From Pseudophaeobacter sp. (GTDB taxonomy: Bacteria > Pseudomonadota > Alphaproteobacteria > Rhodobacterales > Rhodobacteraceae), in assembly GCA_027019165.1 (NCBI GenBank), contig JALUXC010000008.1:62001-126000 (forward strand): a DNA stretch of 64,000 bases, read 5' to 3'. Under the pieces are notes generated by a model, which was not told the origin of the DNA, did no database searches, and saw only the letters and a list, made by a program, of their open reading frames with translations. Each line of letters begins with the position of its first letter. Position 1 is the first letter of the stretch. The position numbers and the translations under genes are program-made. Shown piece after piece: positions 6,689-63,980 of this stretch.

Positions 6689-6717
6689 GACCCGAGCATA
6701 GGCCTGACAGCCAACAA

Positions 6718-6745
6718 AAAGGCCGCCTCAAAAAAGGCGGCCTTT
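6718..6745. terminator. Bidirectional intrinsic terminator between murJ and the cold-shock gene
   Basis: A perfect 10-bp stem, AAAGGCCGCC with GGCGGCCTTT, and an 8-nt A-rich loop. On the minus strand the stem is followed by TTTTTG, a better U-tract than on the plus strand. It therefore probably serves mainly the leftward cold-shock transcript, and murJ from the other side. Confidence 0.8.
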
Positions 6746-6821
6746 GGTGATTCGGGAAGCAACAGCGCCGTCATCATTCTTTCGTTTTTGGTTCGCGCCA
6801 GGCACAGCCCAGCGAACAACC

Positions 6822-8932: not shown

Positions 8933-8947
8933 TTTCGGCCGGGGAAG

Positions 8948-9031
8948 CTCCCGCCCGTCTTACGGCATGAGACATGCCTTATCCCGTTGGGCGTGGCGCC
9001 GCGCCAAGGCGCGGCGGGGCCGCGGATTGCC
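8948..9031. repeat. Structured intergenic repeat, copy A (3' truncated)
   Basis: The copy begins with CTCCCGC and has the 5' hairpin GGCATG-AGA-CATGCC (8964-8978), then CCGTTGGGC (TTGGGC at 8987-8992) and a 9-bp hairpin, CGCCGCGCC-AA-GGCGCGGCG (8997-9016). The right half seen in the complete copies (GCCCAA, third hairpin, GCGGGAG) is missing; instead the sequence runs into the 3' end of the tetR gene. It lies between convergent genes. Confidence 0.75.
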
Positions 9032-35556: not shown

Positions 35557-35586
35557 ATGTGACCCGCTTGCAAGCACAAAAAAGAG

Positions 35587-35619
35587 AAACGCCAGAGCCT
35601 GACCGCTCTGGCGTTTTTT
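35587..35619 (+). terminator. Strong intrinsic terminator after the SPOR/trypsin-like gene
   Basis: A perfect 12-bp stem, AAACGCCAGAGC with GCTCTGGCGTTT, and a 6-nt loop, ending in six T residues. It can also act on the opposite strand (A-rich 5' side) for the converging SDR gene. Confidence 0.92.
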
Positions 35620-35670
35620 GTCCAAGTCACGCGTTGGGAACGCATTGGGGGAACGTATTGGCCCGCCAGA

Positions 35671-46657: not shown

Positions 46658-46747
46658 CCTTGGCAAGAGGCGCACAGCGGGCGCAGCCCGCTGCCGGGCC
46701 CAAGGCCGCCAGGGCTCTGGCGCAGCCAGATCCCGCGGGCGCGGGAG
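46658..46747. repeat. Structured intergenic repeat, copy B (5' truncated)
   Basis: The copy has the stem CCTTGG (46658-46663) with CCAAGG (46700-46705) and an 8-bp hairpin inside it (CAGCGGGC-GCA-GCCCGCTG, 46675-46693). The 3' hairpin TCTGGC-GCA-GCCAGA (46716-46730) follows, and it ends in the family GGGCGCGGGAG. The CTCCCGC start and first hairpin are missing. It lies between convergent MFS and FAD-oxidase genes. Confidence 0.75.
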
Positions 46748-49166: not shown

Positions 49167-49318
49167 CTCCCGCCCGCTCTGCGGCATTCTTCGAATGCCT
49201 CTTCGCCGTTGGGCATGGCGCCGCGCATCGCGCGGCGCTGCACCGTGCAAAAGCACGGTGCCCGGCCCAAGACCGCCAAGGAGTCTCGGCGTGGCCGAGG
49301 CACCTGCGGGCGCGGGAG
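49167..49318. repeat. Structured intergenic repeat, copy C (complete, 152 nt)
   Basis: The element is closed by CTCCCGC (49167-49173) and GCGGGAG (49312-49318). Inside are: hairpin 1, GGCATTC-TTC-GAATGCC (49183-49199); stem 2, TTGGGC with GCCCAA (49209-49214, 49265-49270); two nested hairpins, GCGCCGCGC-ATC-GCGCGGCGC (49218-49238) and CACCGTGC-AAAA-GCACGGTG (49241-49260); and hairpin 3, CTCGGC-GTG-GCCGAG (49285-49299). It lies between the minus-strand GNAT and metallo-hydrolase genes. Reading frames across it are not genes. Confidence 0.85.
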
Positions 49319-49347: not shown

Positions 49348-49941
49348 CTATGCTTGACCGACCTGAGTCTTGCCGCGCCGGTCATGGCGCAGGCTGGCGT
49401 ACAAAACATGTGTGCGCCAGCGGCCATTGATCTGCAGATAGGACTGCGCGACGCCTTCGTATTTGAAACCCGACCTTTCCAACAACCCGCGAGAGGCCGC
49501 GTTTTCTGGCAGGCAGGCTGCTTCGATCCGGCTGAGATCCAGCTTACCAAAGGCATGATGTACGACCGCCCCGATCGCCTCTGCCATGTATCCCTGACGC
49601 GCAAAGGGCTGGCCGGTCCAATAGCCCAGCGTGCCGGCCTGCGCCGGACCCCGGCGGATGTTGTCCAGCGTAATGGCCCCAACCAGCTGCTGATCCTCGC
49701 GCCGGACCAGGAACAGGGGCAAGGCGGTCCCCGAAGAGACCGCCCGCTGCGCCCAATAGACCCGGTTGGTAAAAGCCTTGCGGCTGAGGTGATCTTGCGC
49801 CCAGACCGGCTCCCAGGGCACAAGGTAGTCTCTGCTTTGCAATCGCAGCGCCGCCCAGGTCTGGAAATCGCCATGCACCGGCGGCCTGAGCGTCAGACGT
49901 TCGGTTTCTAGCCGGACCTTGCGACGGGAGAGCAGCAGCAT
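49348..49941 (-). CDS. GNAT-family N-acetyltransferase (RimJ/RimL type)
   Basis: A 197-aa acetyltransferase of the ribosomal-protein N-acetyltransferase (RimJ/RimL) group. LETERLTLRPP at the start, LGYWTGQPFARQGYMAEAI with the acetyl-CoA loop, and ACLPENAASRGLLERSGFKYEG. The target is unknown. Its ATG shares one base with the M16 peptidase stop (TGATG), so it is the last gene of the SURF1-thrC-M16-GNAT run. Confidence 0.9.
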   Translation of the reverse strand: MLLLSRRKVRLETERLTLRPPVHGDFQTWAALRLQSRDYLVPWEPVWAQDHLSRKAFTNRVYWAQRAVSSGTALPLFLVRREDQQLVGAITLDNIRRGPAQAGTLGYWTGQPFARQGYMAEAIGAVVHHAFGKLDLSRIEAACLPENAASRGLLERSGFKYEGVAQSYLQINGRWRTHVLYASLRHDRRGKTQVGQA

Positions 49942-60230: not shown

Positions 60231-62897
60231 ATGCCAGTCGTTGTCGTCGAATCCCCAGCCAAAGCAAAAACAATCAACAAGTATCTGGGCTCTGACTACA
60301 CCGTTCTGGCGTCTTACGGCCACGTGCGCGACTTGCCTCCAAAGGATGGATCGGTCGACACCGAACATGATTTCGAGATGAAGTGGGAGGTCGGCAACGA
60401 CAGCCGCAAGCACGTCAAGGCGATCGCCGATGCCCTCAAGGACGACAACGCGCTGATTCTCGCAACCGACCCCGACCGCGAAGGCGAGGCAATCAGCTGG
60501 CACCTGCAAGAGGCGCTGACCAAGCGCCGCTCGATCAAGAAAGACACGCCGGTCAGCCGCGTGACCTTCAATGCGATCACCAAGGAAGCCGTTGCCGAGG
60601 CGATGAAGAACCCGCGTCAGGTGGACATGCCGCTGGTCGAGGCCTATCTGGCCCGCCGCGCGCTAGACTACCTCGTGGGCTTCAACCTCTCCCCCGTTCT
60701 GTGGCGCAAACTGCCCGGCGCCCGCTCGGCCGGCCGCGTGCAATCGGTCTGCCTGCGCCTGATCGTCGAGCGTGAGATGGAGATAGAAGCCTTCAACCCG
60801 CGCGAATACTGGTCAGTGAAGGCCCAGCTTTCCACCCCGCGCGGGCAGGAGTTCGAGGCCCGGCTCACGGTTCTGGGCGGCGACAAGCTCGACAAATACG
60901 ATCTGGCCAATGCGACCGCCGCCGAACTGGCCGTGCAGGCCGTCGCCAGCCGCGATCTGGTGGTTCAGTCGGTCGAGGCCAAGCCTGCCTCCCGCAATCC
61001 TTCTGCTCCCTTCATGACCTCCACCTTGCAGCAGGAGGCGAGCCGCAAGTTCGGCATGGGCGCGCGCCAGTGCATGAATGCGGCGCAGCGGCTTTATGAG
61101 GCGGGCTACATCACCTATATGCGGACCGATGGCATCGATATGGCGCCCGAAGCGGTTCAGGCCGCCCGCGCCGAGATCGAAACCCGCTATGGCGCCGACT
61201 ACGTGCCCGCATCGCCCCGCATCTACAAGAACAAGGCCAAGAACGCTCAGGAAGCGCATGAATGTATCCGCCCCACGGATATGAGCCGCGATGCAAAAAG
61301 CTTGAAGGTCAGCGAAGAGGATCAGCGCAAGCTCTATGATCTGATCTGGAAGCGCACCCTTTCCTGCCAGATGGAAGGCGCCCGGATGGAGCGCACCACT
61401 GTCGATATCGGCTCAGGCGACGGTCAGGTGGTGCTGCGCGCCACCGGGCAAGTTGTGCTGTTTGATGGTTTCATGCGAGTCTACGAAGAGGGGCGCGACG
61501 ATGTGGTGGACGAGGATGACAAGCGCCTGCCGCAGATCATGAACGGTGAAAAGGTGGGTTTTGCCTCCTCTCTGGCAGCGCAGGCCGAAAAGGCGGGCAA
61601 GGACGCTGCGATCCTGTCGGAAAATGCCGCTGTTCTGGGCCTGCAGCACCACACCCAGCCGCCGCCGCGCTATACCGAGGCAACGCTTGTAAAGAAGATG
61701 GAAGAGCTGGGCATCGGCCGCCCCTCGACCTATGCCAGCGTCATCACCACGATCCAGGACCGCGAATATGTCCGCAAGGACAAGAACCGCCTCTTCCCCG
61801 AGGACAAGGGCCGGATCGTGACCATCTTCCTGCTGAACTTCTTCAAGCGCTACGTGGAATATGATTTCACCGCCGCATTGGAAGAGCAGCTGGATGACGT
61901 CAGCGCCGGTGAGGCCGACTACAAGGATCTCTTGGGCAGTTTCTGGCGGGATTTCTCGGCCGCGATTGCCGAAACCTCGGATCTGAGGATCACCGAAGTG
62001 CTGGATGTTCTGGACGATGCGCTGGCACCGCAGCTTTACCCGCCGCGCGAGGATGGCACCGATCCGCGGATCTGCCCCAAATGCGGTGCGGGCCAGCTGC
62101 ATCTCAAGACCTCGCGTACAGGCGGCTTCGTGGGATGTGGCAACTACCCCGAATGCAACTACACGCGCCCGATCTCGGGTGAGGGCGCCGAAGGATACGA
62201 GCGCATCCTTGGCGAAGATGATGGCGATGAGATCCATCTGAAGTCAGGCCGGTTCGGGCCTTACGTGCAGCGCGGCGAAGCAACAACTGAGAATAAGAAA
62301 CCGCCGCGCTCTTCCCTGCCGAAACAAGGGAGGGACTTCCTGCCCGGTTGGGGGCCCAATGAGATCACCCTTGAGCAGGCGGTGACCCTTTTGACCCTGC
62401 CCCGCGAGATCGGCCAGCACCCGGATGGCGGCGTGATCCAGTCGAACCTGGGGCGCTTTGGCCCCTATATTGCGCACCAGCGCCCGGACGAGGAAAAGCC
62501 GGTCTATGTGAACCTCAAGGAGACTCTGGACGTTTTTGAGATCGGCATGAACCGCGCCGTGGAAATGCTGGCCGAAAAACGCGCCAATCCCGGACGTGGC
62601 CGTCGTGCCGCCGCCAAGGCGCTGAAAGAACTCGGCGAACACCCCGAGAGCGGCGGCGCCGTCAGCATCATGGATGGCCGCTATGGACCGTATGTGAAAT
62701 GGGAAAAGGTGAACGCCACCCTGCCCAAAGATGTCGAACCTGCCAATGTCACGATGGAGATGGCGGTTCAGCTGATCACCGAGAAGGCCGGAAAGAGCAA
62801 AAAGAAAGCCCCCTCCAAGAAAACTGCTGGGAAAAAGACCGCCACCAAGAAGGCCGCTCCGAAAAAGACCGCGAAAAAGGCCTCGGACGCCAGCTGA
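60231..62897 (+). CDS. topA: DNA topoisomerase I
   Basis: A type IA topoisomerase that relaxes negative supercoils. In the 888-aa protein the TOPRIM domain opens with VVVESPAKAKTI and carries DPDREGEAISWH; the catalytic Tyr296 is in YITYMRTDG. One C4 zinc finger (CPKCGAGQL...GCGNYPEC) follows near residue 615, then repeats of the degenerate topo C-terminal type (SGRFGPYVQ, LGRFGPYIA, DGRYGPYVK). The tail from about 850 is very Lys/Ala-rich, like histone H1, and probably binds DNA. A TTGACA at 60151-60156 could be part of its promoter. Confidence 0.97.
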   Translation: MPVVVVESPAKAKTINKYLGSDYTVLASYGHVRDLPPKDGSVDTEHDFEMKWEVGNDSRKHVKAIADALKDDNALILATDPDREGEAISWHLQEALTKRRSIKKDTPVSRVTFNAITKEAVAEAMKNPRQVDMPLVEAYLARRALDYLVGFNLSPVLWRKLPGARSAGRVQSVCLRLIVEREMEIEAFNPREYWSVKAQLSTPRGQEFEARLTVLGGDKLDKYDLANATAAELAVQAVASRDLVVQSVEAKPASRNPSAPFMTSTLQQEASRKFGMGARQCMNAAQRLYEAGYITYMRTDGIDMAPEAVQAARAEIETRYGADYVPASPRIYKNKAKNAQEAHECIRPTDMSRDAKSLKVSEEDQRKLYDLIWKRTLSCQMEGARMERTTVDIGSGDGQVVLRATGQVVLFDGFMRVYEEGRDDVVDEDDKRLPQIMNGEKVGFASSLAAQAEKAGKDAAILSENAAVLGLQHHTQPPPRYTEATLVKKMEELGIGRPSTYASVITTIQDREYVRKDKNRLFPEDKGRIVTIFLLNFFKRYVEYDFTAALEEQLDDVSAGEADYKDLLGSFWRDFSAAIAETSDLRITEVLDVLDDALAPQLYPPREDGTDPRICPKCGAGQLHLKTSRTGGFVGCGNYPECNYTRPISGEGAEGYERILGEDDGDEIHLKSGRFGPYVQRGEATTENKKPPRSSLPKQGRDFLPGWGPNEITLEQAVTLLTLPREIGQHPDGGVIQSNLGRFGPYIAHQRPDEEKPVYVNLKETLDVFEIGMNRAVEMLAEKRANPGRGRRAAAKALKELGEHPESGGAVSIMDGRYGPYVKWEKVNATLPKDVEPANVTMEMAVQLITEKAGKSKKKAPSKKTAGKKTATKKAAPKKTAKKASDAS

Positions 62898-63257
62898 GGC
62901 ACCACGTCGGACCAACAGCAAGGATCCACCAGAACAGAGGCGAGGCTCCCGCCGGTTCGATGCACATTCACAGACTGTGCCCTCTCCGTTGGGCCGGGCG
63001 CCGCTGGCGCGGCGTGGATTCACCGCAATCGGCTCGCCATGATCGAAACCGCGCCGCGCAAGCGGCGCCCGGCCCAAGCCTGCGGCGGGCATTGGCAAAG
63101 CCAATGGAGGCCAAGGGCGCGGGAGTACCCCTGTTTCCGTGGGAGTTTCCACCAGACGCCATGGCGCTCCGTAGAAATACGCGTTTCTCTCCGTATTCTT
63201 GACTCTGCCCTGCCTGAGGCGCAGAACCCTGCCAATTGGCAGTTTAGGGAGAACTCC
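62898..63257. other. Intergenic region between topA and scoA
   Basis: A 360-nt gap. Its centre is the complete structured repeat copy D (62946-63125). The remaining 3' part (63126-63257) is less G+C-rich and should hold the scoA promoter; I see no gene there. The frame open through the whole gap into scoA has no family similarity before the GTG at 63258. Confidence 0.7.
62946..63125. repeat. Structured intergenic repeat, copy D (complete, 180 nt)
   Basis: Closed by CTCCCGC (62946-62952) and GCGGGAG (63119-63125). Hairpin 1 is GCACA with TGTGC (62962-62966, 62976-62980). Stem 2 is extended to a perfect 17-bp pairing of 62989-63005 with 63061-63077; inside it GCGCGGCG (63008-63015) pairs with CGCCGCGC (63052-63059). 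Hairpin 3 is CATTGGC-AAA-GCCAATG (63090-63106). The arm sequences differ from those of copy C although the layout is the same. Confidence 0.85.
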
Positions 63258-63980
63258 GTGAAAAAAGTCTATTCCAACGCCGCCGAAGCGCTCGACGGGC
63301 TGCTTCATGACGGCATGTTCATCGCGGCGGGTGGCTTTGGCCTCTGCGGCATTCCAGAGCTTCTGCTGGACGCAATCAAGGACGCTGGCACCAAGGATCT
63401 GACGTTCGCGTCGAACAATGCGGGCGTCGATGATTTTGGCATCGGCATCCTGTTGCAGACCAAGCAGGTCAAAAAGATGATCTCCTCTTACGTGGGCGAG
63501 AACGCCGAGTTCATGCGCCAGTACCTGTCGGGCGAGCTGGAGCTGGAATTCAACCCCCAAGGCACTCTGGCCGAGCGCATGCGCGCAGGCGGTGCGGGCA
63601 TTCCCGGTTTCTTCACCAAGACCGGCGTTGGCACCGTGATCGCGGAAGGCAAGTTTGAAAAACAGTTCCCCACCGGACCTGACGGCGCCATGGAAGACTA
63701 CATCATGGAAGAGGGCATCTTTGCCGATCTCGCCATCGTGAAGGCCTGGAAGGCGGATGAGACCGGCAACCTGGTGTTCCGCAAGACCGCGCGCAACTTC
63801 AACGTGCCCGCCGCCACCTGCGGCAAGGTCTGCGTGGTTGAGGTCGAGGAAATCGTGCCCACCGGCAGCCTTGACCCCGACAGCATCCACCTGCCCGGCA
63901 TCTATGTGCACCGCATCATCAAGGGCGAGCACGAAAAGCGTATCGAGCAGCGCACCGTCCGTCAGAAGGAGACCGCATAA
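63258..63980 (+). CDS. scoA: 3-oxoacid CoA-transferase subunit A
   Basis: Subunit A of succinyl-CoA:3-ketoacid CoA-transferase, which moves CoA from succinyl-CoA to acetoacetate. The 240-aa protein has AAGGFGLCGIPELLLDAI (the nucleotide-fold glycine loop), TFASNNAGVDDFGIG and GAGIPGFFTKTGVGT, all family signatures. The GTG at 63258 has GGGAG six bases upstream. The gene overlaps the scoB start by one base (TAATG). Related names (atoD, pcaI) fit the same family; the start of scoB (MPWDRN) favours sco. Confidence 0.92.
   Translation: MKKVYSNAAEALDGLLHDGMFIAAGGFGLCGIPELLLDAIKDAGTKDLTFASNNAGVDDFGIGILLQTKQVKKMISSYVGENAEFMRQYLSGELELEFNPQGTLAERMRAGGAGIPGFFTKTGVGTVIAEGKFEKQFPTGPDGAMEDYIMEEGIFADLAIVKAWKADETGNLVFRKTARNFNVPAATCGKVCVVEVEEIVPTGSLDPDSIHLPGIYVHRIIKGEHEKRIEQRTVRQKETA

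Follow-up and report, generated by a model that had tools for sequence, protein, structure and literature searches.

A recurrent palindromic element stands behind genes throughout a Pseudophaeobacter genome and in other Rhodobacteraceae, often between genes that converge. Comparison of its copies supports well a structural role at gene ends, played on one specific strand by each arm of the element. Judged from sequence comparison, the copies would form a structured gene-3'-end family of Rhodobacteraceae that is likely RNA and would serve as a bidirectional transcript-end element, in termination and/or 3'-end protection; we give this reading an even chance of being correct. Termination by the element is the hypothetical part of it, which we infer from the arrangement of the arms.

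The sequence-only reading of the window, a 64,000-nt stretch of the Pseudophaeobacter sp. genome, had described four elements with a closed layout, all intergenic. There are four, and all lie between predicted ORFs (56 ORFs called by a simple home-made gene finder, 88% coding), while the closed two-arm layout holds only for copies C and D, since copies A and B have one recognisable arm each. Copy C (49167..49318, + strand) forms a five-way junction and matches R1, a covariance model built from 11 two-arm copies, at 86.7 bits (E 6.3e-15). Its parts follow one another as closing stem, arm 1, a TTGGGC/GCCCAA stem with two hairpins, and arm 2. The closing stem CTCCCGC/GCGGGAG pairs 49167-49173 with 49312-49318. 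The C-type arm (49167..49214, +) consists of CTCCCGCC, hairpin 1 at 49183-49199 (49183-49189/49193-49199) and GTTGGGC. In the central domain (49209..49270, +), the TTGGGC/GCCCAA stem (49209-49214/49265-49270) surrounds hairpins at 49217-49238 and 49240-49261, paired as 49217-49226/49230-49238 and 49240-49248/49253-49261. Hairpin 3 (49285-49290/49294-49299) lies in the G-type arm (49265..49318, -), which is read inward on the minus strand from the stop codon of the ORF at 49348-49941 (-), 29 nt away. Every stem that had been named for copy C is present at these coordinates, and the sequences of the other copies contain the hairpin-arm variants that had been quoted for them. The minimum free energy of copy C is -96.6 kcal/mol, against a mean of -71.3 (sd 4.2) for 200 dinucleotide shuffles, none of which folded as low (z -6.1).

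The other elements of the window differ in their completeness. Copy A has one recognisable arm (8948..8992, +) with a GC-rich hairpin directly after it, in the convergent gap 8933-9031. Copy B likewise has one recognisable arm, of the G type (46698..46747, -), between convergent ORFs; in a Leisingera record, a two-arm element (L122:3130-3288) has one of copy B's two neighbours. Copy D is a two-arm element (62946..63125, +) between the ORFs at 60231-62897 (+) and 63258-63980 (+), and its central inverted repeat (62989-63021/63045-63077) encloses 23 nt; a fifth row in the arm search of the window, at 63072-63145, is a second listing of copy D, with which it overlaps. Upstream of the ORF at 63258, which by eye resembles a CoA-transferase, a block of about 80 nt within 63170-63260 is near-invariant in three species, with copy D and its edges varying; it is probably a promoter or leader.

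Across copies, the unit of construction is the arm: CTCCCGC, a hairpin of free sequence and TTGGGC, with a purine-rich stretch before and a GC-rich hairpin after. Two inverted arms make a cloverleaf of about 130 nt, in which the closing stem CTCCCGC/GCGGGAG is followed by an arm, a TTGGGC/GCCCAA stem with one or two hairpins, and the second arm. We identified 137 arms, 86 of them in two-arm elements; the remaining 51 had no strict-motif partner within 450 nt, a definition that overstates the one-arm class, as some partners are diverged or decayed (L009, L075). Strict invariance of CTCCCGC and TTGGGC follows from the search, in which arms were found through these two motifs. In an alignment of 44 copies, double changes occurred at 0 of 7 pairs of CTCCCGC/GCGGGAG and at 1 of 6 pairs of TTGGGC/GCCCAA; neither stem covaries freely, and both behave like sequence motifs. 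Because the motifs recur in lone arms without a recognisable partner, their pairing in two-arm copies may partly follow from the presence of two inverted arms.

A long form of 286-396 nt (about 300 nt) consists of a two-arm copy with a further, conserved folded centre. Nine complete copies were found (L016, L019, L022, L025, L041, L054, L229, L236 and L259), and their centres carry the motifs GCTGAGA, GGGCAGRTNTGCCC and TCAAGGG...CCTTGAC. With eight copies aligned (L236, whose long insert disturbs the alignment, was omitted), 29 of 88 predicted pairs show double changes, and the covariation term of the fold is small, at -1.4 of -111.8 kcal/mol. The central motif pattern matched 14 times in the genome, two of the matches seeming unrelated by eye, and its control never; among at least 116 loci in named records it matched at least five times, and three of these matches seem real (Pseudophaeobacter, Phaeobacter and Tritonibacter). 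All 28 matches of three overlapping central-motif patterns in loci fetched from our own genome fell inside an arm or no more than 250 nt from one, these loci having been picked by their arms. At L319:1413-1525, a central domain that by eye seems intergenic has no recognisable arm within the 500 nt displayed.

Several searches agree that the element is abundant. Over the 4.3-Mb genome, the arm pattern CTCCCGCCN{15,44}GTTGGGC matched 81 times, against none for the reversed control, and recurrence of the pattern is therefore not due to chance; the other arm type, GCCCAAG...GGCGCGGGAG, gave 38 matches, again with none for its reversed control. BLAST with copy C gave at least 39 matches in the same genome (40 of 99 candidates scored). 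A covariance-model search, which the sequence-only reading had proposed, was run with R1 on this and other genomes and found further copies: in our own genome, where 150 of 6633 candidates were scored, it returned at least 86 rows at E<=0.1. Many loci matched on both strands, since the element is nearly symmetric. After de-duplication, 95 elements were placed in the genome, each with at least 500 nt of flank, and none lies inside a predicted ORF, so that recurrence and intergenic position, seen before in the window, hold genome-wide.

Covariation of the element is massive. Double changes affect 29 of the 52 pairs among the 11 training copies, compared with 12.2 in shuffles. The 44 copies, which come from four species, show them at 35 of 52 pairs, with 92.6% of cells paired and a covariation score of 0.416, against 0.113 when shuffled and at most 0.10 when the structure is slid along the alignment. 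The earlier proposal that structure is selected, with hairpin arms that change and still pair, extends beyond the training set: 29 copies from the three species other than our own, none of them used to build R1 and many of them orthologs of training copies, have double changes at 34 of 52 pairs and a score of 0.417 (0.118 shuffled). Both the 44- and the 29-copy alignments were fitted to the structure, and their counts lean towards it.

Flanks of copies in our own and in other species align as orthologs, mostly at 71-87% identity, and groups of elements at the same locus span four species of the genus; one copy in a genome of another genus (G008) is orthologous to an own-genome locus. At 14 loci represented in at least two species (40 pairs), the elements are 87% identical and the 15-nt flanks abutting them 54%, while stretches 300-700 nt away are 75% and 84% identical; non-orthologous elements are 74% identical. 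Orthologs of copy C are present in G001 and G002 and degraded in G003. In Leisingera sp. SS27, the copy C locus corresponds to L122:5660-5827, with both neighbours matching, and the element there has two C-type arms, whereas copy C has one of each type. At least 116 element loci were recovered from named records, and 15 of them share both neighbours with one of our own element loci; their records are titled Phaeobacter, Ruegeria, Leisingera, Tropicibacter, Pseudophaeobacter, Roseobacter, Tritonibacter and unclassified Rhodobacteraceae or Rhodobacterales, and some could belong to our own genus. Among 226 neighbour proteins in named records, 53 had their best match among 188 element-adjacent own proteins and 15 among 213 control proteins. 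The two orthologous losses that we inspected, of copies B and C and both in G003, show a decayed element and no clean empty site. By these comparisons, the element has orthologs at the same loci in other species and genera, as copy C does in Leisingera. The element is old and under selection.

To define the taxonomic range, we counted pattern matches within the window's family, over 394 genomes from 393 genera. At least one match occurred in 124 of them, and at least nine in 35 (both strands together, table read by eye), with a maximum of 141; the reversed-pattern control never exceeded 8, a value reached in G364. Two of the 35 high-copy genomes belong to our own genus (G000 and G002). Outside the family but within the class, none of 285 genomes had more than two matches, and, as far as pattern matches tell, high copy numbers are confined to Rhodobacteraceae among the genomes searched. 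R1 with stricter filters (E<=0.001) was positive in 6 of 41 genomes, all four of the genus (our own included) and two others; the model is biased to our own genus and misses pattern-positive genomes such as G018, which has 10 pattern matches. Among the matches listed from the scan of named records (at least 116 stretches), all but five stretches have Rhodobacteraceae-type titles, the exceptions being Bradyrhizobium, a Faecalibacterium MAG, Roseospirillum and two stretches of one Nocardioides record. The first three (L159, L168 and L206) are single pattern matches that could be due to chance or misbinning. The last, JAHVJD010000003.1, is titled Nocardioides marinus and carries element loci (L218 and L219), and a protein adjacent to the element in L219 is 82.7% identical to one of our own genome; the record is probably mislabelled or contaminated.

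Of the 95 elements, 57 lie in convergent gaps, 36 in codirectional and 2 in divergent ones, and the median distance between a stop codon and the CTCCC end behind it is 24 nt (n=116, home-made gene finder). For comparison, gaps of at least 60 nt in the window, with or without an element (n=31), comprise 5 convergent, 18 codirectional and 8 divergent. In named genomes, 110 elements among the at least 116 stretches were distributed as follows: 66 in convergent gaps, 31 in codirectional and 8 in divergent ones, with 4 lying inside ORFs and 1 at an edge. Where a one-arm element stood in a codirectional gap, it faced the stop codon of the upstream gene in 16 of 20 cases in our own genome, an orientation bias that was not replicated in named records (9 of 19). 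GC-rich hairpins stand behind predicted ORF ends, and sites with a hairpin followed by T residues were found in 18 of 55 convergent gaps that bear the element, compared with 6 of 8 that do not (p 0.045); the three element-free convergent gaps of at least 60 nt in the window were all positive. Two stretches of the window between convergent genes, 6689-6821 and 35557-35670, are plain bidirectional terminators with an A tract, a hairpin and a T tract, and offer a useful contrast to the element.

We reasoned that a stem acting as RNA, or as single-stranded DNA, of one strand would tolerate G-U pairs on that strand and not A-C. Counting changes per orthologous locus and column, arm P4, which points outward on the modelled strand, showed 22 changes from Watson-Crick to G-U and 3 to A-C (p 0.0002). 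In arm P2, inward on that strand, the corresponding numbers were 3 and 13 (p 0.02), a modest bias, and in the central stem they were 3 and 1 among 252. When 76 orthologous pairs of C-type arms were read inward, we counted 18 G-U and 42 A-C (p 0.003); each pair was taken in both directions from two related species, and these events are not independent. P4 contains two recurrent wobble columns, without which the 44-copy alignment gives 23 G-U against 5 A-C. The cells of the central hairpin in that alignment comprise 780 Watson-Crick, 6 G-U, 1 A-C and 3 other (790 in total). Earlier counts for inward-read arms, 25 G-U and 81 A-C (6 and 24 at flanked positions), point in the same direction; they mix stems with a recurrent internal loop, and we rely on the ortholog-based counts. 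Each arm thus prefers wobble pairs when read outward, in the order central hairpin, arm, GGGAG and C/T-rich tail. Tolerance of wobble mainly in the outward-read arm points to RNA; strand-biased mutation or a role of single-stranded DNA may be another source of the asymmetry.

In two-arm elements the tail beyond the arm is C/T-rich, with T at 0.30-0.49 at seven of the eight positions from +8 to +15. At least four T within 6 nt, located between +5 and +20 and outside GGGAG, were found in 52 of 137 arms, compared with 12 of 137 in a control window; the remaining 85 arms have no such run, and the T tracts are moderate. For one-arm elements with the hairpin read inward, at least four of the next eight nucleotides are T in 6 of 50. 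A terminal hairpin over GGGAG was also considered and dropped, as it averaged 3.90 pairs against 3.95 with shuffled tails.

These observations suggest a model in which the transcript from one gene would pass the near arm and fold the central hairpin together with the far arm. It would then end at the pyrimidine-rich tail, just short of an antisense run into the neighbouring gene. Between convergent genes, each arm would serve the opposing transcript and the central hairpin would serve both, which would explain its avoidance of wobble pairs. The bidirectional transcript-end reading draws on the placement of the element, its orthology, the wobble asymmetry, the pyrimidine tail and the higher frequency of plain hairpin+T terminators in element-free convergent gaps. 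We keep termination as a hypothesis because 85 of the 137 arms are without a T run, the terminal-hairpin idea failed, and one-arm elements in codirectional gaps are awkwardly oriented: since the arm faces the upstream stop codon (16 of 20 in our own genome), the sole sense transcript reads it inward. For such elements to fit the model, they would have to be relics or to block antisense transcripts. A bolder version, which we think unlikely, is that one modular RNA fold serves the whole family as a noncoding RNA of about 300 nt, a cloverleaf of about 130 nt and a one-arm half, the arms stopping opposing transcripts just short of the neighbouring gene as an antisense insulator kept at corresponding gene ends across genera.

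The sequence-only reading had left room for a REP- or MITE-like mobile repeat and for a co-occurring REP-associated tyrosine transposase. A search for such a Y1 transposase (PF01797) found none in the genome, and the control search was positive in 5 of 14 genomes. A mobile repeat of the REP/BIME, RIME or MITE kind, either fossil or slow, would make the short and one-arm forms non-autonomous derivatives of the long form of about 300 nt, inserted behind genes because insertion there does no harm, and its mechanism of mobilisation would keep the arms palindromic. High copy number, the mosaic of long, short and one-arm forms, exchangeable arm types, a REP-like preference for 3' ends and the two C-type arms at the Leisingera copy C locus are all in keeping with this idea. 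Set against it are the missing Y1/RAYT transposase, the loci shared across species and genera, the two losses that show decay and no precise empty site, and the opposite wobble strand in the two arms. The mobile repeat is disfavoured on this evidence and we hold it to be doubtful, a working gene-end signal being the more likely of the two. Mutational upkeep, in which template switching repairs imperfect palindromes and creates covariation without selection, would suit the double changes of the central hairpin, which occur almost without G-U intermediates; it leaves unexplained both the 87% and 54% identities inside and beside the element and the per-arm wobble asymmetry, and seems very improbable.

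That same asymmetry bears on a DNA-level explanation, a cruciform or hairpin between convergent genes bound by protein (a nucleoid protein, a gyrase-like enzyme, or a barrier to replication or transcription). The almost strictly Watson-Crick central stem (780 of 790 cells), the closing-stem sequence that hardly varies in the 44-copy alignment and the preference for convergent gaps would all agree with such a site; a double-stranded site should, however, show G-T and A-C alike, and the wobble is strand-specific in each arm. We give this explanation little credence. It is also quite unlikely that the functional object is the long form, as a large structured noncoding RNA of about 300 nt, with the short and one-arm forms as its relatives in 3' UTRs, either degraded or processed. 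Its nine complete copies with conserved GCTGAGA and TCAAGGG, its double changes at 29 of 88 pairs and its central-motif matches (14 against 0, two of them doubtful, with three real-looking ones among at least five in named loci) speak for that view, but the short forms are more numerous and themselves kept in place, the central domain stands at least once without an arm within the 500 nt displayed, and the covariation term is small.

Comparison with Rfam is in line with the earlier remark that no named family was recognised. No Rfam family reached its gathering threshold anywhere in the 64-kb window, and copy C and the long form L025 gave only matches below it. The best of these, CRISPR-DR29 for copy C (25.5 bits, cut-off 39) and SorX for the long form (20.9, cut-off 46.6), were judged to be matches of GC-rich hairpins. 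Cuckoo or CCUCC-type sRNAs were another candidate class; the CCTCC run near TTGGGC is, by inspection, not conserved in other copies. Integron attC sites have the box motif GTTRRRY/RYYYAAC, which GTTGGGC/GCCCAAC fits, and share a covarying stem behind genes; attC was rejected by inspection, because the box order of the element is inverted relative to it and there is no cassette array. Bidirectional intrinsic terminators, hairpins flanked by A and T tracts, similarly lie between convergent genes, whereas in the element the T tracts are weak, the arm (45-56 nt) carries recurrent motifs and the fold is multi-branched.

Closer in kind are the REP/BIME elements of enterobacteria, numerous intergenic imperfect palindromes of mosaic build that lie mostly behind genes and between convergent ones. 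The element is also multi-copy, intergenic, palindromic, placed at 3' ends and mosaic. Unlike REP/BIME, it has no RAYT/Y1 transposase in the genome, its arm hairpins covary freely and are not one repeated sequence, its loci are kept across genera, and it folds into a four- or five-way junction. The foot of REP/RAYT hairpins has a conserved GTAG-type tetranucleotide, and no GTAG/CTAC consensus was found at the profiled positions around both ends of the 137 arms. RIME are alphaproteobacterial intergenic mosaic palindromic elements of about 100 bp, a description that the element shares in another taxon; the likeness drawn here is one of description, and covariation or a strand preference of the stems is not known for RIME. 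A reference title in PMC2873474 names them Rhizobium-specific intergenic mosaic elements. The SAM/SAH riboswitch, a structured RNA restricted to Rhodobacterales and located upstream of metK (PMC2864571), resembles the element in being structured and in its Rhodobacterales-type range; it differs in that position, and the window has no Rfam match to it. We found no description of the element among titles and the beginnings of abstracts, and one may exist in subscription papers. We would class it among interspersed palindromic elements of mosaic build, as one with the behaviour of a conserved RNA structure at 3' ends and kin in kind to REP/BIME and RIME.

The element, for which we found no name, stands behind genes about 100 times in this genome, and dozens of further copies occur in other genera of an ecologically major marine family. 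The per-arm wobble asymmetry speaks for an RNA role at 3' ends more than for a selfish repeat, and the element offers a test case for interspersed palindromes turning functional. If convergent transcripts do end at the element, it would represent a distinct class of multi-branched bidirectional terminator and would change the annotation of gene ends in Rhodobacteraceae.
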